The notes beneath the pieces are model-generated. The model was not told the origin of the DNA. It did no database searches and saw nothing but the letters and a program-made list of their open reading frames with translations. From Alkalitalea saponilacus (lineage in GTDB: Bacteria; Bacteroidota; Bacteroidia; Bacteroidales; Marinilabiliaceae): a DNA stretch of 64,000 nucleotides. Location: positions 62,001 to 126,000 of the forward strand of contig NZ_FUYV01000015.1 in the NCBI RefSeq assembly GCF_900168165.1. Reading direction: 5' to 3'. This document shows, piece by piece, positions 2,504 through 11,950 of this stretch. How positions within the stretch are numbered: the first letter of the stretch is position 1; each line of letters starts with the position of its first letter. A program made the position numbers and the translations under genes.

Positions 2504-3649
2504 TTAATTCTCAATATTTACCCATGTATTATTGGTTCGGTTCGATTTTATAACAGCATGGATAAACTGCATCCCTCTTACACCATCATGCACAGTTGGG
2601 AACTCTCCATGTGCAAATTGCTCTTTTCTTATGCTTTTTGCAATTCCTTTATAAATATTAGCAAGAGCTTCATAAATTCCTTCCGGGTGTCCGGCAGGCA
2701 TGGTTTGTCCCAGTTCACACAAATCAGAATTATAGCTGTTCCCGGGTTTGTAAATTCTGGCAGGTTCGTTATCTGTCAGCAGATAAAGATGGTTAGGATT
2801 TTCCTGACTCCACTTAAGTGAGGCTTTTGAGCCATATATTCCAATATTAAGATCGTTTTCTACTCCGCCTGCTACCTGAGTTGCCCGAATGACACCTTTT
2901 AGTTTCTCTGTAAAACGCAGCAAAACGGTACCGTCTAAATCCAGAGAAATATCTTCACGAATTGTATTAAGGTCGGCCAAGACTTCTTGAACATTTAAAC
3001 CAGTAATATATTCAATCAGGTTAAAGGCATGTACGCCAATATCTCCCATACAGCAACTTGCTCCGGCAACTTCCGGGTTCAGTCGCCACACGCCTTTTAT
3101 GCGTGTTTCGTTACCATGAATTATGCTGTTTATCCATCCCTGGTAATATTGTGCATCTATTCGTTGTATTTCTCCAAGTAATCCCTTCTCCACCAAAGCT
3201 CGCATTTGCCTTACCATGGGGTAACCGGTATAGGTATGTGCGAGTGCAAAGGTTATGTCATTATCTCTAACTAAATCCTCAATAACTTTGGCTTCATCAA
3301 CGTTAAGAGTCATTGGCTTTTCACACATCACATGAAACTGATGAGCAATGAGTTCTTTGATTATGGGGAAATGTGATGCATTAGGAGTCACCACCGCAAT
3401 GAGTTGCATTCTTTCCTCCTCGGATAAGGCTGTTTCACCAGCGATTAACTCCTCAACATTTTTATAGCACCTTTTTAAGTCGAACCCTTCTTTTCGGGCA
3501 AATTCCAGACTTCTGCTGTTGTCAGAACTGAAAATCCCTCCAATTAACTCAAATTGACCTGACGACAATGCTGATTTTCGGTGAGTATCACCAATAAAGG
3601 CTCCTGTACCACCGCCAATCATGCCCATTTTTATCTTTTGATTTGCCAT
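2504..3649 (-). CDS. Gfo/Idh/MocA family oxidoreductase, cytoplasmic
   Basis: 381 residues with no signal peptide, so probably cytoplasmic, unlike the two exported paralogues upstream. The N-terminal Rossmann fold has a glycine-rich MIGGGTGAFIGDTH loop, and the family EKP motif is in HVMCEKPMTL. The C-terminal alpha/beta domain is complete and the length is usual. Enzymes of this family oxidise or reduce a sugar or cyclitol hydroxyl with NAD(P). It is the last gene of the minus-strand cluster that begins at 9023 and is separated from the isomerase gene by about 200 bases holding a 98-base inverted repeat, so it may be expressed differently. A keto-sugar reductase or dehydrogenase acting on the imported product of the periplasmic genes is a reasonable inference. 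Confidence 0.85.
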   Translation of the reverse strand: MANQKIKMGMIGGGTGAFIGDTHRKSALSSGQFELIGGIFSSDNSRSLEFARKEGFDLKRCYKNVEELIAGETALSEEERMQLIAVVTPNASHFPIIKELIAHQFHVMCEKPMTLNVDEAKVIEDLVRDNDITFALAHTYTGYPMVRQMRALVEKGLLGEIQRIDAQYYQGWINSIIHGNETRIKGVWRLNPEVAGASCCMGDIGVHAFNLIEYITGLNVQEVLADLNTIREDISLDLDGTVLLRFTEKLKGVIRATQVAGGVENDLNIGIYGSKASLKWSQENPNHLYLLTDNEPARIYKPGNSYNSDLCELGQTMPAGHPEGIYEALANIYKGIAKSIRKEQFAHGEFPTVHDGVRGMQFIHAVIKSNRTNNTWVNIEN

Positions 3650-3692
3650 TTTTCAATACGATGAAAGTGAAGTAAATCCGTGTTTATAAAAT

Positions 3693-3790
3693 TGAGATGT
3701 CGCCCTGTTTCCTGAATTGTGATAGAACGATATTAACCAATACAAATTATGAATTGTAATAGACCCGGTTAAAACAGGGGCGACATCTCA
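3693..3790. repeat. 98-bp element with 18/19-bp terminal inverted repeats
   Basis: TGAGATGTCGCCCTGTTT at 3693-3710 is the reverse complement of AAACAGGGGCGACATCTCA at 3772-3790, apart from one extra C/G. The arms enclose about 61 AT-rich bases with no reading frame. It fills the 200-base gap between the isomerase (stop at 3851) and the cytoplasmic oxidoreductase (start at 3649). No clear target-site duplication is seen. It could be a tiny MITE remnant or a transcribed long hairpin that separates expression of the two genes. Confidence 0.6.
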
Positions 3791-3850
3791 TTTGAAACAG
3801 TCCAGGTTTCAAATACTTGTTTATATATTAGCTTTGAAATAGTCCCATTG

Positions 3851-4696
3851 CTAAAGATCTCTCGATATTTCTCTTAAATGTTCGATGGATTTGGCAACTT
3901 TTGGTGCCGGATTTTCCCAGTCCCATTCATGCTCAATGGTAATAACCCCCTTAAAACCGGTCTCTTTAAGCACCTGAAGAGCTTCTCTCATATTAAAAAC
4001 GCCAGTGCCAAAAGGAACAGTGTATGCTTCCATATCATCAAATGCTGTCATGTCTTTGAGATGCAGATATTTGATACGACCTTCCAACATTTTATATACA
4101 TCAATTGGATTTAGTCCCGAACGCATCCAGTGTCCGTTGTCTGCACTCACACCAATTCTGGAATCCCTTCCCTCTATAACATCCAGAACTGTTTGAGGAT
4201 TCCAATAACGAGTGGGAGGGGGGTGATTATGAATCGCCAGTTGAACATCATATTTCTTCACGAGGCTTTCTATTAAATCCATCCAGATTGGATCTGGCTC
4301 GCTTCCTATGGTTTTGATTCCCATATCGGCTGCAAAGGCGAACAACTGTTCCCACTCTTCTTCTGAACCTGCAGCCACAATTCCGTAATTGATAATTTTT
4401 ATATCATGTTTATTTGTCAATTCGCGCATCAGGTTTTTGGTCTCCGCGTTCATGCTGAAATGAGTGGTTGCATCGCTTTCTTCAGTGATTTTCTGTCCGG
4501 GATACGCTTCAATATACTTAAGCCCCAGATTGCTTGCTGTTTCCAGCGCTTCTTCAAAGGTGAATCGATTAAAGGTCCACGCTTGTACAGCCAGTTTCCA
4601 GCCGTGATCCTCCCAAGGATGGAGATTTTCTTCGGCTTCTTTGCACGAAATGTTCATGAGCATGAGTAGCGCTAAAAACAATGATGTTGGTTTCAT
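3851..4696 (-). CDS. Lipoprotein TIM-barrel sugar isomerase/epimerase-like (AP-endonuclease 2 fold)
   Basis: 281 residues. A short hydrophobic leader ends in a lipobox-like MNISC, predicting an exported lipoprotein. The rest is a xylose-isomerase-like TIM barrel: WKLAVQAWTFNRFTFEEAL at the first strand, HNHPPP, GVSADNGHWMRSG (metal-ligand Asp and His) and a final VITIEHEWDWEN strand with Glu. The family is usually called sugar phosphate isomerase/epimerase, but an exported member will not see phosphorylated sugars. Exported members beside Gfo/Idh/MocA genes are known in Bacteroides clusters that act on 3-keto-glycosides, where they work as lyases or hydratases. The gene follows the 4755-6104 oxidoreductase by 58 bases and is probably in its operon. 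Substrate is inferred, not seen. Confidence 0.8.
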   Translation of the reverse strand: MKPTSLFLALLMLMNISCKEAEENLHPWEDHGWKLAVQAWTFNRFTFEEALETASNLGLKYIEAYPGQKITEESDATTHFSMNAETKNLMRELTNKHDIKIINYGIVAAGSEEEWEQLFAFAADMGIKTIGSEPDPIWMDLIESLVKKYDVQLAIHNHPPPTRYWNPQTVLDVIEGRDSRIGVSADNGHWMRSGLNPIDVYKMLEGRIKYLHLKDMTAFDDMEAYTVPFGTGVFNMREALQVLKETGFKGVITIEHEWDWENPAPKVAKSIEHLREISRDL

Positions 4697-4754
4697 AGAT
4701 GTGATTTAAGGTTATTATTTGTAGTCCTCCGATTGAGCCCTGGATTTTTAATGC

Positions 4755-6104
4755 TTAAACCTTTGGGAGTTCCCAAGGTTTTCTGTAAACCGGCCAAATA
4801 AGATCATTCGCTTTATTATTGTTGACAAACTCCTTCTTATTGTCGTCCCAGTAAAGTTTTTCTCCAACGCGGTGTGCAATGTTCCCCATATGAGAAACAA
4901 TGGCAATCTCCTTACCAACGTCAATTGAGCCCCTTGGGGTTTTCCTGGTTCTCATGCAGTCCAGAAAATCTCTGACATGATTGGCAGCATCTTTTCCGTC
5001 TCCAGTTTGTCTTGGAACCTCAGCAATGGAACCTTCTTGTCCGGGTTTCTCAGGAAGGACTTCCCATCCACCTCGATCAACCACCAAAGTCCCATTGTCG
5101 CCAATAAATGCAACTCCATGTCCGCGATTATATGGCCCCCGATCAATTCCAATGGCATGTTCCCATTGTAAAATGAAATCATCAAATTCGTATATGGCAG
5201 TTTGCGTGTCCGGAGTTTCCATGGCAGCTTTATCGATGCTGAAATTCCCACCTACAGACATAATGCTATTCGGCATAGAAGCTTTCATTCCATACAGGGC
5301 AAAATCAATAAGATGCGCTCCCCAATCGGTCATCAAACCTCCTCCGTAATCCCAGAACCATCTGAAATGGAAATGAAATCTGTTTCCATTAAAAGGGCGT
5401 TTTGGTGCGGGACCGAGCCAAAAATCATAATCCACTCCGGCCGGGGGATTTCCGTCAGGTCTTGGAACTGGTTTTAACCATGAAAGATAGGCCCAGGTTT
5501 TAACTTTGCGAATGTTTCCAAGTTTACCTGAATGAACGTAGGCCATGGCATCCTGCCAGTGGTCTCCGCTACGCTGCCATTGTCCAACCTGCACCACCCG
5601 GTTGTATTGTTTGGCGTACTTTTCCATTATCAGGCATTCGCCAATGGTGTTGGCCAATGGCTTTTCCACATAAATGTCTTTTCCCGCTTTGCAGGCATCA
5701 ATAAATGGTAAACAGTGCCAATGATCAGGTGTTGCGATAATAACGGCGTCAATATCATCACGTGCAATAAGATCTCGATAGTCGTTATACTCTGCTATTT
5801 CGGGTGGCTGAACTTCTCCCTGCCCAGTTTTTTCTCTGGTTTTTAGGTAGTAGTCGCGGGCATCATGTACCCGTCTGGTCAGTATGTTTTGATCTACATC
5901 ACACATGGCTACCAACTCAGTGTCGGGCTGCTCCATAAAACGCATGATGTTTGTTAGTCCCATTCCGTTAACCCCAATGACTCCATACCTGATTTTTGGC
6001 CCTTTACTGGAACAACCTGTCATGCCGGGCAAGGCTGAAGCCAGACTTGCCCCCGCTATTACTGCGGCACTGTTTTTGCAAAATGATCTTCTTGTTTGTG
6101 TCAT
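4755..6104 (-). CDS. Tat-exported lipoprotein Gfo/Idh/MocA oxidoreductase
   Basis: 449 residues. The start is a twin-arginine signal ([18 protein letters not shown]) whose end has a lipobox-like GMTGC, so the folded, cofactor-loaded enzyme should be exported and lipid-anchored. The mature part has the Rossmann loop [12 protein letters not shown], the EKP motif in [10 protein letters not shown], and the long C-terminal domain with [20 protein letters not shown] typical of the exported subfamily. Related proteins carry tightly bound NAD and oxidise or reduce sugar hydroxyls without cytoplasmic cofactor exchange. It starts 25 bases after the stop of a second such enzyme and precedes the lipoprotein TIM barrel, so the three form a likely operon. 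The substrate is probably a glycoside or amino-sugar glycoside, by analogy only. Confidence 0.88.
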
Positions 6105-6129
6105 ATTCCCCTGATTATTATTCTTTTAT

Positions 6130-7455
6130 TTACGACCTCACTGGGGTTCCCGGTATGGGAACCTCGAATTTCATATCAACATTACCCTTTGTTATGTCTT
6201 CCGGCCCCAGTTTTAGATTGGAGTTATATATTTCATCCCACGTTATTCTTCTCCCCGTATAGGCTGATTCTCTTCCCATGATAGCTGCAAGATTGGACAA
6301 TGCCGTACGCTCTCCTTCATTGATGTAATAACCGGTTCTGATGGCTGTTACCAGATGGATATGTTCCTGTATATAGGGTGAAATTTTTGGTGTATTCATT
6401 GGATTACCCTGTTCATCATTTGGGTATTGATATTGCCATTTGATGCTGCCATCTAAGTTGTAAATGGTATTGAGACAGTTGGTGTATCCTTTTGTTCCCA
6501 TTACAATTTCGCCAACCCCGTTGGCGCAATTGTCAATCTGTCGGCACATACTGTGAGAAGAAACCCCGTTTCCAAAAGAAAAGTCAATGCTGAAAAAGTC
6601 AAACTGATCACCCGTTACTCTTCGATGACGACCTCCGTAACCAATTGCTGCCACCGGATACTTTTCCATAAACCAGTTAACCACATCAATATTATGAATG
6701 TGTGTGTCCAGAATGTGGTCACCACTGAGCCATGTGTAGTTATTCCAGTTTCGCAACATGTATTCCATGTCAGTCCAGCCTTCCTGGCGGCGTCTGAACC
6801 ATACGTGTTCCTGATTCCAGAAAGCTTTGGCAGCCACAGGTTGCCCAATGGCGCCGTTGGCTACTCGTTCGAATGTTGCCAGATAGTCGTGCTGGTGTCT
6901 TCTCTGTGTCCCTGTTACTACATTTAATCCCAAGGTTTTTGCCATTCGTGAGGTGGCAATAACCGAACGAATCCCTACCGGATCAACGGCAACAGGTTTC
7001 TCCATGAAAACATGTTTTTTTGCTTCAATAGCAGTTCTGAAATGATCAGGCCTGAAGAATGGTGGAGTAACAAGTAGAACCACATCAACATCTGTCTGCA
7101 TTACTTTTTTGTAAGCATCAAGCCCTGAGAAGCATCTGTCGTCAGGTACTTCGATGTTAAATCTGCCCAAACGTTCTCTAACTTCTGTTATTTTATCGGG
7201 AAATACATCTGCTAATGCTCCCACTTCAACCCCCGGGCCTGTACTCAAAAAGTTAAGCAAAGCTCCAGTACCTCTGTGTCCGCAGCCAATCAGTCCGGCC
7301 TTCAATCTTTTTCCGGCAGGAGCCCTCTCATTTAAAGGCGGGATTCCCAGCTCTTCAGATCTTCTTTTTTTTGAACAACCTGCCAGCATTGATACTCCCA
7401 TTATTCCAATGGTGCCAGCCAATGCGGTGTTTTCAAGAAATTTTCGCCTGTTCAT
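6130..7455 (-). CDS. Second Tat-exported lipoprotein Gfo/Idh/MocA oxidoreductase
   Basis: 441 residues from the ATG at 7455, chosen because the protein then begins MNRRKFLENTALAG, a good twin-arginine signal ending in the lipobox MLAGC. An upstream ATG at 7485 overlaps the previous stop as TAATG and is a possible coupled start. Longer frames extend into the preceding gene and lack sense. The mature enzyme has the Rossmann loop AGLIGCGHRGTGAL, the EKP motif in HVFMEKPVAVD, and the RRRQEGWTDMEYMLRNWNNYTWLSGDHI segment characteristic of large exported members. It is only a distant paralogue of the following gene, suggesting different steps (for example oxidation and reduction) of one pathway. 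It sits directly after the cytochrome-FGE fusion gene. Confidence 0.87.
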   Translation of the reverse strand: MNRRKFLENTALAGTIGIMGVSMLAGCSKKRRSEELGIPPLNERAPAGKRLKAGLIGCGHRGTGALLNFLSTGPGVEVGALADVFPDKITEVRERLGRFNIEVPDDRCFSGLDAYKKVMQTDVDVVLLVTPPFFRPDHFRTAIEAKKHVFMEKPVAVDPVGIRSVIATSRMAKTLGLNVVTGTQRRHQHDYLATFERVANGAIGQPVAAKAFWNQEHVWFRRRQEGWTDMEYMLRNWNNYTWLSGDHILDTHIHNIDVVNWFMEKYPVAAIGYGGRHRRVTGDQFDFFSIDFSFGNGVSSHSMCRQIDNCANGVGEIVMGTKGYTNCLNTIYNLDGSIKWQYQYPNDEQGNPMNTPKISPYIQEHIHLVTAIRTGYYINEGERTALSNLAAIMGRESAYTGRRITWDEIYNSNLKLGPEDITKGNVDMKFEVPIPGTPVRS

Positions 7456-7484
7456 ATTTTTGTTTTTCTGCATCTTGTTTCTCA

Positions 7485-9023
7485 TTAATTGTTTGTATCT
7501 GACTGAGGCACGTGAACAACTCTGAAGCCCACATGGTTTGCATCGGAATACCACCATCTGCTTTTGGGTATTTGCGGGTCTGTTCTCAGCCATAAATCGG
7601 TGCGTGTATGGTCTCGTGCAGCCACGCGCAAATCTGCTGCGTCGCTCCTGAAAGAACCTCCTCGAATGACTCTTTCCTGTCCGGTTGCAGGGCCTCTGGG
7701 ATTTCGGACAACTCCTTCCGGATAGGATGAATATGTGTTTGGTGCGTACCAGTCAAGACAGAATTCAGCCACATTCCCCAGCATGTTAACCAATCCAAAA
7801 GGATTTTCAAATACATTACCCGGTTCGGAAGTCCTGTTGCTGCTGTTTTGATTGTAAATTGCATAATTTGAAATGACATCAGTGGATGGGCCAAAGATTC
7901 TGTTCCACCATGTTTGTGACGAGAACCTTCTGGGGTTGCCTTCAAAAAAATATGGTGTTTGCGTGTCGCCACGGGCAGCATATTCCCATTCGGCTTCGGT
8001 TGGTAGCCGATAATGTTTTCCGGTTACAGCAGATAACCATCTGCAATACTCCATGGCTGCATGATGTGTCATGGTAATGGCCGGTCTCTGTCCTGTTCCC
8101 CATCCCTGGTCGGGTGCTCCCCAGGGTGGTGTGGCTCCTGAAAAGCCGTCCACTTGTGCTTGTTCTTCAGCAGTGAGCCGGCCTTCTGAGGATGTGGCAT
8201 TAAACCAGGCAAGGAATTCATTCCATGTAACCTCTATTTTGGCCATGAAAAAGTCATCTAAATACACTTCTCTCTGAGGTCCTTCATCTTCCCGGCGGAA
8301 TGGCTCATTTTTTGGACTTCCCATTAGGAATGTACCACCGGGTATTGCTACCATTTCAAACGAAACGGTCGTCCCGGGTATGAATTCAGTATAGTTTTCA
8401 AATGCTTTTATTTTTGCAGGTGCGGTAAATGTCTCACCCTCCTCCTCTTCTTTTTGTCCAAATGCCAAATTTTGTGCATGCACATAATCCGGGTTGTAGT
8501 GGCCTGTATGTATGTGGCAGTTTAGGCAACTCAGATCATCTTTGTTTCTTTCGTAGTGAAGATGACTGTCAACACCTTCTGTACTTAATCCTACAGGAAA
8601 AAGATTGTCGTGACATCTGATGCAAGATGATTCGTAAGTGAAATTAATAGCAACCTCCGGCGAGCGCTTTGCTTCCCAGTTATAATCGGCGGAGTCTTTG
8701 AACAAAAAACCGTAAATATCATTGGCTCCATGTTTTATTTTGGACCACAAACGGTTCTCTCCATGAGGGGGGAGGTGACAATCGACACAATTTACTGTAA
8801 TTCCTGCTTTATTGTTAACGTGAGGCGATAAGCGCCAGGCATCTTCTGCATGGCCATGCACATGACATGAAAAACAATATTCGTTCGTTTCTGTGAAACG
8901 AACAGCCTTGTTGAATGGATAGATCAAAAGAAGAACGGTCACTACTCCGGCTGCAAACAACAGAAAGTTTTTTCGTCGATAAATAAAATTCCGGAAGGAA
9001 TTTTTTATTTGACCCAAATTCAT
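7485..9023 (-). CDS. NapC/NirT-type tetraheme cytochrome c fused to an FGE/SUMF1-like domain
   Basis: 512 residues. An uncleaved N-terminal helix (about 19-36) is followed by four CxxCH haem motifs at residues 50-54, 79-83, 134-138 and 166-170, spaced as in NapC/NirT/NrfH quinol-oxidising cytochromes. After a Glu-rich linker (about 190-200) comes a full SUMF1/FGE-type domain (about 218-505) with VAIPGGTFLMGS, RLPTEAEWEYAAR, NMLGNVAEFCLDWY and VIRGGSFRSDAADLRVAARD. In true formylglycine-generating enzymes the GGS stretch is followed by two copper-binding cysteines; here they are absent, so the domain is probably structural or binding, as in GldJ/GldK. It heads the oxidoreductase operon and could pass electrons between the quinone pool and the exported enzymes. 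The whole protein should face the periplasm. Confidence 0.85.
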   Translation of the reverse strand: MNLGQIKNSFRNFIYRRKNFLLFAAGVVTVLLLIYPFNKAVRFTETNEYCFSCHVHGHAEDAWRLSPHVNNKAGITVNCVDCHLPPHGENRLWSKIKHGANDIYGFLFKDSADYNWEAKRSPEVAINFTYESSCIRCHDNLFPVGLSTEGVDSHLHYERNKDDLSCLNCHIHTGHYNPDYVHAQNLAFGQKEEEEGETFTAPAKIKAFENYTEFIPGTTVSFEMVAIPGGTFLMGSPKNEPFRREDEGPQREVYLDDFFMAKIEVTWNEFLAWFNATSSEGRLTAEEQAQVDGFSGATPPWGAPDQGWGTGQRPAITMTHHAAMEYCRWLSAVTGKHYRLPTEAEWEYAARGDTQTPYFFEGNPRRFSSQTWWNRIFGPSTDVISNYAIYNQNSSNRTSEPGNVFENPFGLVNMLGNVAEFCLDWYAPNTYSSYPEGVVRNPRGPATGQERVIRGGSFRSDAADLRVAARDHTRTDLWLRTDPQIPKSRWWYSDANHVGFRVVHVPQSDTNN

Positions 9024-9343: not shown

Positions 9344-11950
9344 TTATAGTTGGTCTTTTTTCTCAACAAATGATTCAAATGTATGACAAAATGGTTCCCC
9401 AAAGCTTTTTTCATAATTATCAGAAAACCATTGATAGGTATACTTCGCCTGATTAAAATGACGCTGTTTAATCAGTGCATTAATCTTAAGTTTAAGGGCT
9501 TCCTCACTATACGGATCTCCAATAAACACACGGTCGCAAATCTTAATAATCATGTCATGGTTTCCGGTGAGGAATGGTTGTTGAGCACATTTTAAAAGAG
9601 TATCTACTATTTCTGATGCTGTATGACCTTTGAATTCATCCAGCCACTCTTCTTCCATGTCAATTAGCAGAGCGCCAGTTTCCACAGTTGAAAAGAATTC
9701 GATAAATCCTTCAGGGTTATCAATCAGGGATCGATTGCGCAACATGGCCTGAACCTCAACATAATCGCAAAACAACTGTTCTCTGTTAATATTTATCATC
9801 CAGTTTTCCATCTGGCTATCAATGCGAATACCATCAAGGAACGTCAAAACCTGGCGCAGTTTACTCATATTAACACCCCTGTTGTTGGTCGCATTCTTTC
9901 GGCTTAGTCCATACCATAAAATTTGGTTGATGTCATCAGAAGAGATTCCTCTTCGTGGCTTTTGACTGTATAGCAGAAGTAGCACAAGTAATTGCCTTAT
10001 TTTTGGTGTGAATTGCAAGGAGATATCGTTGCCTTCACGATCTATTACCTGAAATTCACCAAATAAACATATTGAATTTGGTCTGGATTTCTCCAATGCA
10101 GGCATATTGATAACCGGAACATCCTGCGCTTCACCATTCAGAGATGTTTTTTGACGATTCCTTCGCGTATAGAGTAGAATAATTAGATAAACCACCAGTA
10201 AAATTCCTGCAGCAAGGAAAACAATCAGATTCCAGTTTGTTTTTTTAGATTGGTAAAGAGGAACCACATCCTGATAGAGCTTCCATATCTCCTCGTTACC
10301 TAGCGGTCTGTCCCAGATTGCCAAATCGTCGATATAACCATTCATGTAATTATACATTTGTATGGCACGGCCAATATTTACCGTTCCGCGCCCCATAAAG
10401 GAGGGGTGCTTTTGAGATATTCCATCAGGTCGTCCATTAACAAAAATGGCTTGTTCTCCAGTTCGTTTCGTGTATCTCCAAACAACATGCACCCATTCAT
10501 TGGGTCGTATTTCGCTGTTCCCTGTGATGTCATTTGCAAAAAAGCCAAAATAGGGTCGCGCATTTCGGAGTTGAAGATGAAGTCCCTGGCGGTAAGTCGC
10601 CTCTTCAGTTCCAAGTATTGTGATATCCCTTCTCTCCTCTTGCAATGGAGATATCCTTAACCATGCACTAACGGTGAAATCATTGTTGTGCAACCCCAAA
10701 GTTTCGGCATCGGGTAGTTCTATAAAGGTGTCATCGGTTAAATATGCAACAGAACCTCGTATGGGATCTTCCGCAAAACGAACACCGTGATTTTTACCAT
10801 GATTTCTATTTGCCGAGGCGTCACGTGTGCTGTTCTCAAAAGGGAAATATGCCTTTAACCGATGATGCAGGTCAAGCGGACTGGCTAAAAAGTTTTGTGT
10901 TATATCTTCCCGCACATTGCTCAGATTTACTCTCTCAGGAGTAAAGCTGTAACCGGGCCTAAATGGTTGTAAAAAAACATCCTCACCGGCAAGAAATGGA
11001 AAGGAGTAGTGACCGCTGGTAAGCGCCTGAGTTGAACCTTCCCAACTGACATCCGTGAGTGGCTGGAGGTTGTAGGTTATATTTCCGCTTATGGTGTTAT
11101 GTGAATTTAAATTTTCAATAACGCCCAAAATGACATAATGATACCTGTTACGAACAATAAAATTAGGCCTTTTGCCGGTTTTCTTCCATAAATTTATTAA
11201 ATGGGAAATGAGAAAAGGATTCTCGTTAATGTTCATCATAAGAAAGGGGATCTCAATTCCTGTTGTATCCCGGGGAAGATTGTAGCCGGTGAAAAACATG
11301 AATGGATTACTGGGTCTTCCCCTTGCAAAACTACCATGAAACTCAGGCTCCAAAACGGTAGAAAAATTAGGCTCAACAGCGTAGTCCCATAGATGATAAA
11401 ATCCGGGAGGCGTATCTTGATTCCGTTGAAGGGTAAAACAGACCAACTGATGCCCCCTCTCTGCCATTATTTTGGTTGAAGGCCATAAATCATCAGTCTC
11501 TGATACAAATATTTTATTGTATAGATGATGTGATTTTAAAGCTGTTTCGAGATAGAAAAACGGAAAATTATAATCAATAAAAAGAGTTAGAACTTCACCG
11601 GGGTTCTGATTTAAAAAGATGCTTATTTCATCAAGAAAATATGAAAAAGGTTCCTCATTCTTCTGAGGAGTTATCATTCGGATGATGGCCGAATCGGCAT
11701 CTACTTCAAGGCGGATTTGAAAACCTCTCACATTTGCCTGAAGCAATTCCCTGATGGTCATTGTTTCAGGCTCCAGATGGTTGTTTAAATCAGAATAATT
11801 TGAAACAAGAAAAAACTGATCAACAAAAGCGTTTGAGGCAGCACGTCGTCTTTGTGCATCGGAATGATGCACAAAGAGGAACAGAAAGAAGATCATGAGC
11901 ACAAATTGCAACGATGAATGCCCAACACTATTGATTTTACAGTAATTCAT
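9344..11950 (-). CDS. Transmembrane one-component regulator: PLC-like + LamG outside, SARP/BTAD-like DNA-binding domain inside
   Basis: 868 residues. Signal-like helix at 14-32. Residues about 40-280 resemble the phospholipase C X-domain fold (TIRELLQANVRGFQIRLEVD; FSYFLDEISIFLNQNPGEVLTLFIDY), but the two catalytic histidine motifs are missing. Residues about 364-560 are a LamG/concanavalin-like domain (AYFPFENSTRDASANRNHGKN; NGYIDDLAIWDRPL). One TM helix at 573-594 (WNLIVFLAAGILLVVYLIILLY) is followed by RRNRQK. The cytoplasmic part has a SARP-type winged helix at 625-725 (ICLFGEFQVIDREGN; FTPKIRQLLVLLLLY; MSKLRQVLTFL) and a helical BTAD-like region to the end. This predicts a membrane-tethered transcription factor sensing a glycan or lipid ligand with a dead enzyme. 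It follows nagB by 56 bases and may share its transcript. Target genes are unknown. Confidence 0.72.
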   Translation of the reverse strand: MNYCKINSVGHSSLQFVLMIFFLFLFVHHSDAQRRRAASNAFVDQFFLVSNYSDLNNHLEPETMTIRELLQANVRGFQIRLEVDADSAIIRMITPQKNEEPFSYFLDEISIFLNQNPGEVLTLFIDYNFPFFYLETALKSHHLYNKIFVSETDDLWPSTKIMAERGHQLVCFTLQRNQDTPPGFYHLWDYAVEPNFSTVLEPEFHGSFARGRPSNPFMFFTGYNLPRDTTGIEIPFLMMNINENPFLISHLINLWKKTGKRPNFIVRNRYHYVILGVIENLNSHNTISGNITYNLQPLTDVSWEGSTQALTSGHYSFPFLAGEDVFLQPFRPGYSFTPERVNLSNVREDITQNFLASPLDLHHRLKAYFPFENSTRDASANRNHGKNHGVRFAEDPIRGSVAYLTDDTFIELPDAETLGLHNNDFTVSAWLRISPLQEERRDITILGTEEATYRQGLHLQLRNARPYFGFFANDITGNSEIRPNEWVHVVWRYTKRTGEQAIFVNGRPDGISQKHPSFMGRGTVNIGRAIQMYNYMNGYIDDLAIWDRPLGNEEIWKLYQDVVPLYQSKKTNWNLIVFLAAGILLVVYLIILLYTRRNRQKTSLNGEAQDVPVINMPALEKSRPNSICLFGEFQVIDREGNDISLQFTPKIRQLLVLLLLYSQKPRRGISSDDINQILWYGLSRKNATNNRGVNMSKLRQVLTFLDGIRIDSQMENWMININREQLFCDYVEVQAMLRNRSLIDNPEGFIEFFSTVETGALLIDMEEEWLDEFKGHTASEIVDTLLKCAQQPFLTGNHDMIIKICDRVFIGDPYSEEALKLKINALIKQRHFNQAKYTYQWFSDNYEKSFGEPFCHTFESFVEKKDQL

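Follow-up and report, generated by a model that had tools for sequence, protein, structure and literature searches.

To our knowledge, it is not settled how exported nicotinamide enzymes of the Gfo/Idh/MocA family dispose of their electrons outside the cytosol. The question is raised by a 64,000-nucleotide stretch of one contig of Alkalitalea saponilacus (the window hereafter means this whole stretch; the genome is 4.56 Mb). Here a NapC/NrfH-type tetraheme cytochrome fused to a formylglycine-generating enzyme (FGE)-like domain, which we call CytFGE, is encoded directly upstream of GfoB, a Gfo/Idh/MocA enzyme with predicted signals for twin-arginine translocation (Tat) and lipid anchoring. An earlier note on this DNA had placed five genes of a redox module on one strand, and our reading of the open reading frames (ORFs), together with Pfam matches, bore out the five genes and their positions, on the minus strand. 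The unit that is conserved among relatives is smaller than this five-gene set and consists of two genes, CytFGE and GfoB. We put at about an even chance the proposal that the two act as one quinone-linked periplasmic oxidoreductase, in which a sugar would be oxidized and its electrons passed through the FGE-like domain and the hemes to menaquinone.

The conserved pair of CytFGE and GfoB

The surroundings of the fusion gene were examined in 80 named loci, the best 80 of 577 confirmed candidates fetched with the fusion as query, and in a family sample of 71 genomes with 29 fusion loci, that of the window included. GfoB is the next gene downstream in 76 of the 80 named loci (in three the contig ends, and in one, L096, another gene follows) and directly follows the fusion in 27 of the 29 family loci. 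The fusion itself was found in 27 of the 71 family genomes, and a GfoB profile searched at E ≤ 1e-90 matched the same 27. No matches fell between 1e-90 and 1.8e-177; the profile was built from these very loci, which makes the cut-off partly circular, and the search was limited to E ≤ 1e-90, with weaker relatives outside it. Co-occurrence of the fusion with an exported Gfo enzyme, a check set beforehand, therefore held, and the partnership of CytFGE and GfoB is strongly supported at the level of sequence. GfoA (a second exported Gfo enzyme) and a TIM barrel protein had also been counted as parts of the module; both vary across the family and the named loci, and we rejected them as core parts.

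Gfo/Idh/MocA genes are abundant in these genomes (in that of A. saponilacus, for example, a single Gfo profile has 7 matches), and one might suppose that this is an ordinary Gfo/TIM sugar cluster to which a cytochrome gene is adjacent by chance. The co-occurrence counts refute this explanation, which we regard as next to impossible: the two genes are neighbors far too frequently. CytFGE of the window is 97% identical to a fusion protein of Natronoflexus pectinivorans (Marinilabiliaceae, Bacteroidota). The genomes of L059 and L060, the two family loci at which GfoB does not adjoin the fusion, both carry GfoB on another contig, and the gene after the L059 fusion encodes an EcoRI-type methyltransferase. 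A second GfoB copy without a fusion alongside was seen in genome G034.

The GfoB ORF is listed at positions 6130–7593 of the minus strand. Because most GfoB relatives are 432–450 amino acids long, the real start is probably Met41, at about position 7473 and 11 bases past the CytFGE stop; the gene would then span 6130–7473, and the apparent overlap with CytFGE is gone. Lipoboxes on three enzymes and twin-arginine motifs on two of them, as claimed in the earlier note, were recognized by eye: GfoB and GfoA have RRxF with a lipobox-like Cys, the TIM barrel protein has a lipobox-like MNISC, and the protein at 2504–3649 has no signal. Among the named loci, all 76 GfoB proteins have RRxF, and all but one (75 of 76) fit a loose lipobox pattern.

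GfoB contains the Rossmann and C-terminal Gfo/Idh/MocA domains with a nicotinamide loop, the Lys of an EKP motif and a catalytic His; the glycine loop, EKP Lys199 and His300 are kept in the 47 aligned rows (47 of 77 GfoB proteins). Its predicted structure (predicted local distance difference test score, pLDDT, 81.9; predicted template-modeling score, pTM, 0.80) matches the folds of scyllo-inositol dehydrogenase and aldose-aldose oxidoreductase. GfoB is a putative nicotinamide-dependent dehydrogenase. An assignment as a GH109-type glycosidase was rejected: the GH109 C-terminal domain PF21252 had no match in GfoB, and EKP is kept where the PF21252 protein of locus L050 has EVS. We also rejected as a flavin mononucleotide (FMN) site the TGAT found in the glycine loop of GfoB from L149 and L158, because it is part of the Rossmann loop.

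A proposed route from the FGE-like domain to the quinone

In the mechanism that we propose, GfoB would be folded with its nicotinamide cofactor, exported by Tat and held as a lipoprotein, and would oxidize a sugar or a glycoside; from the gene context, C3 is the likeliest position. GfoB would dock onto the FGE/PvdO-like domain in a physical complex, and this domain would relay electrons to the four c-type hemes. From the hemes they would pass to menaquinone, at a site like that of NrfH in the inner membrane. GfoA, the TIM barrel protein, DUF1080 and ThuA proteins and a cytosolic Gfo enzyme would process the product, in a set that differs by lineage. In Bacteroidota without the fusion, a heme-free FGE-like protein would work beside GfoB, with a covalent flavin probably in place of the hemes.

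Pfam, a structural model and a Foldseek search divide CytFGE (7485–9023, minus strand) into an N-terminal membrane helix, a NapC/NrfH-type tetraheme domain and an FGE/PvdO-like domain. The fusion described in the earlier note was confirmed by matches to PF03264 (87.5 bits; cut-off 24.1) and PF03781 (148.9 bits; cut-off 23.3) and by four CXXCH motifs on the minus strand, C50-H54 (8862–8876), C79-H83 (8775–8789), C134-H138 (8610–8624) and C166-H170 (8514–8528). Exactly four such motifs occur in each of the 80 named fusions. The model (pLDDT 77.7, pTM 0.60) has its predicted membrane helix at residues 18–43, with a hydropathy peak at 19, and its confidence falls below 50 over most of residues 290–311, a loop rich in invariant residues.

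With NrfH, NapC and CymA (PF03264) the protein shares the N-terminal membrane helix, the four CXXCH motifs and a Lys and an Asp that match those of NrfH 2j7a. In the alignment, which covers 53 of 81 fusions, these residues (K95 and D102) never vary; they pair with the K and D of D. vulgaris NrfH, positions that we take to line its quinone pocket; the fuller pattern K...G..D.[YWF] is present in 73 of the 80 named fusions. CytFGE differs from these cytochromes in its FGE-like fusion, its Gfo partner and a His in place of Met at heme 1. The first heme motif is CXXCHxH in 80 of 80 named fusions, whereas the alignment with NrfH 2j7a has Met at that place; the Met of CXXCHxM in NrfH is a ligand of heme 1. 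The corresponding His56 of CytFGE (8856–8858) should alter the potential or reactivity of heme 1. Against the NrfH equivalog TIGR03153 CytFGE scored 72.1 bits, under the cut-off of 134.2, and it fell below the NapC/NirT family cut-off as well.

The earlier note had made the quinone-linked cytochrome a net electron donor to respiration. The NrfH-type positions of the quinone site are kept, as this requires, but the direction of electron flow is undecided because CymA and ImoA oxidize quinol (PMC9600427); ImoA, a NapC/NirT protein of an iron oxidizer, had previously been proposed to be a quinone reducer. The tetraheme domain might in the same way oxidize menaquinol and GfoB reduce a periplasmic keto-sugar, for instance a 3-keto product, as NrfH feeds NrfA. 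A levoglucosan route via 3-keto sugars closes with a reduction (PMC7676230), which also favors this direction. However, the reduction of a sugar ketone with menaquinone is probably uphill, and the replacement of the heme-1 Met by His in all named fusions means that this is not a plain NrfH site. We consider the reductive direction unlikely, and sugar oxidation with menaquinone as the acceptor is the reading that we prefer.

The nearest solved fold to the FGE-like part is PvdO 5hha, with a template-modeling score of 0.74 on target (Foldseek). CytFGE has the same fold as PvdO and FGE (PF03781) but lacks the FGE-type Cys pair and carries two extra segments and the heme fusion; against the PvdO equivalog NF051459 it scored 95.8 bits (cut-off 500). 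In human FGE we take the C-terminal Cys pair to be copper-binding. The window protein has no such pair in the stretch aligned with the Cys residues of human FGE, and the only Cys residues in its FGE-like part are Cys327 and Cys422; true formylglycine generation was therefore rejected. Near residues 495 and 506 (SDC...GFRxxC), two Cys are present in 41 of the 80 named fusions, one in 34 and none in 5, and CytFGE of the window has neither. This C-terminal pair is a possible redox or metal site, though not a conserved one. Purified PvdO showed no detectable cofactor and no activity, and the protein may depend on a partner for electron transport (PMC6206403).

Heme-free relatives and a candidate flavin site

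The FGE-like part also occurs without hemes. In a phylum sample of 392 genomes, with three candidates scored per genome so that second copies could escape, the whole fusion was matched in 3 genomes, that of the window among them, and the FGE-like part alone in many. Among the 90 genomes with a match, we examined the neighborhoods of 55 that lack the fusion and 3 that have it. The remaining 32, most of them from family f19 with matches ending near profile position 465, were set aside by choice; as controls we used 12 of their loci, of which 11 yielded an alignment row. The heme-free matches amounted to 58 loci in the 55 genomes, with 118–278 bits and open frames of mostly 290–440 amino acids. 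Three of these loci had no FGE recognized by BLAST and were not counted. A GfoB homolog directly adjoins the heme-free FGE-like gene in 44 of the remaining 55 loci, with 36–39% identity to GfoB of the window where a value was given and 46% in L162. Two segments, D..[ST]x[PA][ST] and DPQxPKSxWW, are common to the fusions and their heme-free relatives and were not seen, by eye, in the 11 control FGE-like proteins.

A FastTree phylogeny of the FGE-like part, in which long branches were flagged, included 57 fusions (40 of the 80 named, that of the window and 16 others), the 55 heme-free proteins and the 11 controls. All 57 fusions form one clade with a support of 100, and the grouping of the heme-free proteins has a support of 34. 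A single event, either gain or loss of the heme domain, is therefore the simplest history, and the tree does not distinguish between the two.

The 44 heme-free pairs suggest another role for the FGE-like domain: as a chaperone or docking module it might serve to mature GfoB or to anchor it, with the hemes serving a different periplasmic acceptor and receiving no electrons from GfoB. FGE folds are also used structurally, as seen in matches to PorK/GldK. However, GfoB is the constant neighbor of the heme fusion, and the enrichment of apbE, the gene of a redox flavin transferase, near the heme-free form argues for redox chemistry on both sides. We regard the chaperone role as very unlikely, and turn to apbE with the electron relay as the preferred reading.

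Of the 55 heme-free genomes, 25 have an apbE gene no farther than 5 kb from the FGE-like gene, against 0.3 expected; for a distance of up to 8 kb the number is 28, against 0.48. The expected numbers assume random placement and rounded genome sizes and are not corrected for kinship. The 25 genomes are spread over 19 of 32 genera, counted by eye from group codes. Somewhere in the genome, apbE is present in 55 of 55 heme-free genomes and 27 of 29 fusion genomes. None was found within 8 kb of the fusion in the 29 fusion genomes (positions read by eye; some contigs are short), and BLAST detected none in 108 fetched fusion loci. Since ApbE is often nearby, a covalent flavin probably does the work of the hemes in the heme-free form, and hemes and covalent flavin would be alternative links to respiration. 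Cytochromes and flavinylated domains that substitute for each other in extracytosolic systems are described in PMC8238504. Both the heme-free relatives and the apbE link lie beyond what the earlier note had observed.

A candidate site for such a flavin is present in CytFGE. The published ApbE motif is D-x-x-[ST]-G-A-[ST] (PMC12052999), and residues 292–298 of the FGE-like domain, DGFSGAT (8130–8150, minus strand), match it exactly, with Thr298 as the candidate FMN site. They are letter-identical to the site in NqrB of the same genome, which lies in an nqr operon with its own apbE. The exact motif occurs once in the 47 window genes (19,382 amino acids). Among 2,149 fetched proteins (896,091 amino acids, partly redundant), six occurrences lie outside the fusions, the carriers including this NqrB and the heme-free FGE-like protein of L173. 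The exact form, with Ala, is found in 26 of 29 family fusion loci, and the Ala/Pro state changed at least five times on the tree of the 57 fusions. Heme-free proteins have D..[ST]xP[ST] at the same place: 54 of 55 fit the loose loop, position 5 has Gly in a single protein and Arg in 37, and position 6 has Pro in 52. That 53 of the 54 loop-fitting proteins are without the Gly of the motif speaks against the loop as an ApbE site. The loop, its D and the final [ST] thus appear to be old, with the Gly almost confined to the fusions and the exact ApbE sequence to part of them. As a sharp signature the motif was downgraded, given the Pro that replaces Ala in most named fusions and the D..[ST]xP[ST] of the heme-free relatives. 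A scan of 20 apbE-linked heme-free loci found no exact ApbE motif in a neighbor that would name another substrate.

Electrons leave a nicotinamide cofactor as a hydride but enter hemes one at a time, so transfer straight from GfoB to the hemes would need a converter. It is possible, though rather unlikely, that the FGE/PvdO-like partner represents a new kind of protein that carries flavin covalently: ApbE would put FMN on the last residue of D-x-x-[ST]-x-[AP]-[ST] (Thr298), and the flavin would split the NAD(P)H hydride of GfoB into single electrons, either for a generic envelope partner in the apbE-linked form or for the fused tetraheme domain and then menaquinone. Cytochrome and flavin would in that case render one periplasmic nicotinamide enzyme respiratory. 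CytFGE resembles the ApbE-flavinylated extracytosolic systems in the swapping of cytochrome and flavin, in its DGFSGAT and in the apbE genes near the heme-free form, but the flavinylation of its domain is only a candidate here.

Two heme-free loci and one further cluster were also observed. At L143 (8198–14716) and L144 (8559–15427) the heme-free FGE-like gene is followed by genes for YceI (with apbE in L143), a PSCyt1/DUF1549/DUF1553 protein and a DUF1501 protein, with no close GfoB; perhaps this is another electron partner for this FGE-like subfamily. The A. saponilacus genome also has a cluster on contig C52 (L228, 8569–14405) with an HTCS-like regulator, a Tat Gfo enzyme, a PF16490 oxidoreductase, a TIM barrel, apbE and a second Tat Gfo enzyme, and no FGE. 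It suggests that flavinylation may be tied more widely to exported Gfo enzymes.

Variable neighbors and the reaction served

The three other genes of the module, all on the minus strand, are variable partners of the conserved pair. GfoA (4755–6104) is the second Tat-lipoprotein of the Gfo/Idh/MocA family and is distantly like BT2158, a glycoside 3-dehydrogenase; the TIM barrel protein (3851–4696) is a xylose-isomerase-like lipoprotein (PF01261); and a third Gfo/Idh/MocA enzyme (2504–3649), cytosolic in the absence of an export signal, is weakly like levoglucosan and xylose dehydrogenases in profile searches. Pfam matches to the Gfo/Idh/MocA domains were obtained for GfoB, GfoA and this cytosolic protein. 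Against the BT2158 family NF058561 (cut-off 750 bits), GfoA scored 164.2, GfoB 24.5 and the cytosolic enzyme 28.3 bits, and GfoA was rejected as a member.

Neighbors were counted in 64 of the 80 named loci, the other 16 being dropped for a downstream flank that was too short. At least 31 of the 64 have one or more of GfoA, GfoA2, GfoC, ThuA, DUF1080 or a known TIM barrel in the same-strand run, with DUF1080 in at least 8 and ThuA in at least 16; these BLAST counts are lower bounds, and L112, for example, has a TIM barrel that BLAST missed. Matches to PF06439 (3-keto-disaccharide hydrolase) and PF06283 were confirmed on example relatives. The gene run of the window has no DUF1080, and elsewhere in the same genome there are 4 DUF1080 matches, three over the cut-off and one below.

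The 3-keto-glycoside breakdown invoked in the earlier note therefore stands in part: genes related to it are found in these 31 runs, but GfoA lies far below the BT2158 cut-off, and many runs contain a different pair of genes, discussed below. The Bacteroides BT2156–BT2160 pathway (NF058561, NF058563) has in common with the window and its relatives an exported Gfo enzyme, to which GfoA is a distant relative, a TIM barrel and DUF1080, whereas the window proteins score under the family cut-offs. We know of no cytochrome or FGE partner for that pathway. On contig C49 of the same genome (26430–28689; L221, L217 and L229), a BT2158-family gene (873 bits; cut-off 750) stands beside a 3-keto-disaccharide hydrolase, so the organism probably has the classic 3-keto route in addition to the new module.

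The LacABC lactose/glucoside 3-dehydrogenase of Caulobacter, Pedobacter and others uses flavin adenine dinucleotide (FAD) and cytochrome c. It resembles the pair in carrying out membrane-bound periplasmic glycoside oxidation in a DUF1080 context, but CytFGE-GfoB has a Gfo/Idh/MocA dehydrogenase and a NapC-type tetraheme fusion. PMC9007349 links this 3-oxidation to DUF1080 hydrolases.

The run may extend further. Downstream of the cytosolic Gfo gene, on the minus strand, lie a GT2 glycosyltransferase gene (1507–2421), whose product has two hydrophobic C-terminal segments, and a gene for a TPR membrane protein that is cut by the window edge; the operon could reach into both. About nine hydrophobic segments were seen in the TPR protein, and the two look like a periplasmic glycosylation pair. 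Upstream of CytFGE are a LamG-containing protein of 868 amino acids (9344–11950, minus strand), with two predicted hydrophobic segments, and a glucosamine-6-phosphate-isomerase-type gene. The C-terminal part of the LamG protein resembles, by eye, a DNA-binding regulator. A relative of it lies no more than 4 genes upstream of the fusion in 26 of the 64 named loci, and it is possibly a membrane-bound regulator of the module.

Both GT2 and TPR membrane protein genes are in the same-strand run of the fusion in 33 of the 64 named loci. Because of this, GfoB might act in envelope-glycan modification and oxidize the product of the neighboring pair, a glycan that would be lipid-linked or on the surface, and the hydrophobic C-terminal segments of GT2 are in keeping with such a role. 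However, other loci have DUF1080, ThuA, additional Gfo genes, GH2 or GH109 genes or HTCS regulators nearby, and the glycosyltransferase pair may be a separate adjacent unit. An envelope role is in our view improbable, and we continue to prefer the oxidation of a sugar or glycoside that feeds the quinone pool.

Several observations weigh against the preferred reading. The frequency of the GT2 and TPR genes is one, and at 33 of the 64 named loci BLAST recognized no gene of the 3-keto type. The named loci are close relatives of the query, because the best 80 of the 577 candidates were taken, and at L059 and L060, 2 of the 29 family loci, the fusion has no adjacent GfoB. Heme-free pairs of FGE and GfoB exist without a cytochrome of their own, and the quinol oxidation by CymA and ImoA bears on the oxidative direction. 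The mechanism is weakest where a hydride has to be turned into single electrons; a flavin bound to the FGE-like domain would fill this gap, but the exact motif, with Ala, is present in only 25 of the 80 named fusions, and 55 have Pro instead.

No description of the CytFGE-GfoB pair was found among the top-ranked open-access literature, and we know of no modular periplasmic respiratory oxidoreductase that joins the Gfo enzyme family to an FGE-like relay domain. The words gfo, sulfatase and formylglycine-generating are absent from PMC8238504 and PMC11334425 (supplements outside the scope), and the FGE/PvdO-like fold is a candidate ApbE target that these papers do not name. Through CytFGE, the PvdO-like fold also gains a natural fusion to an electron carrier. 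For one branch of the Gfo/Idh/MocA family, the module offers a concrete and testable answer to the question of electron disposal: if the proposal is correct, the pair probably feeds electrons from a sugar reaction outside the inner membrane into respiration.

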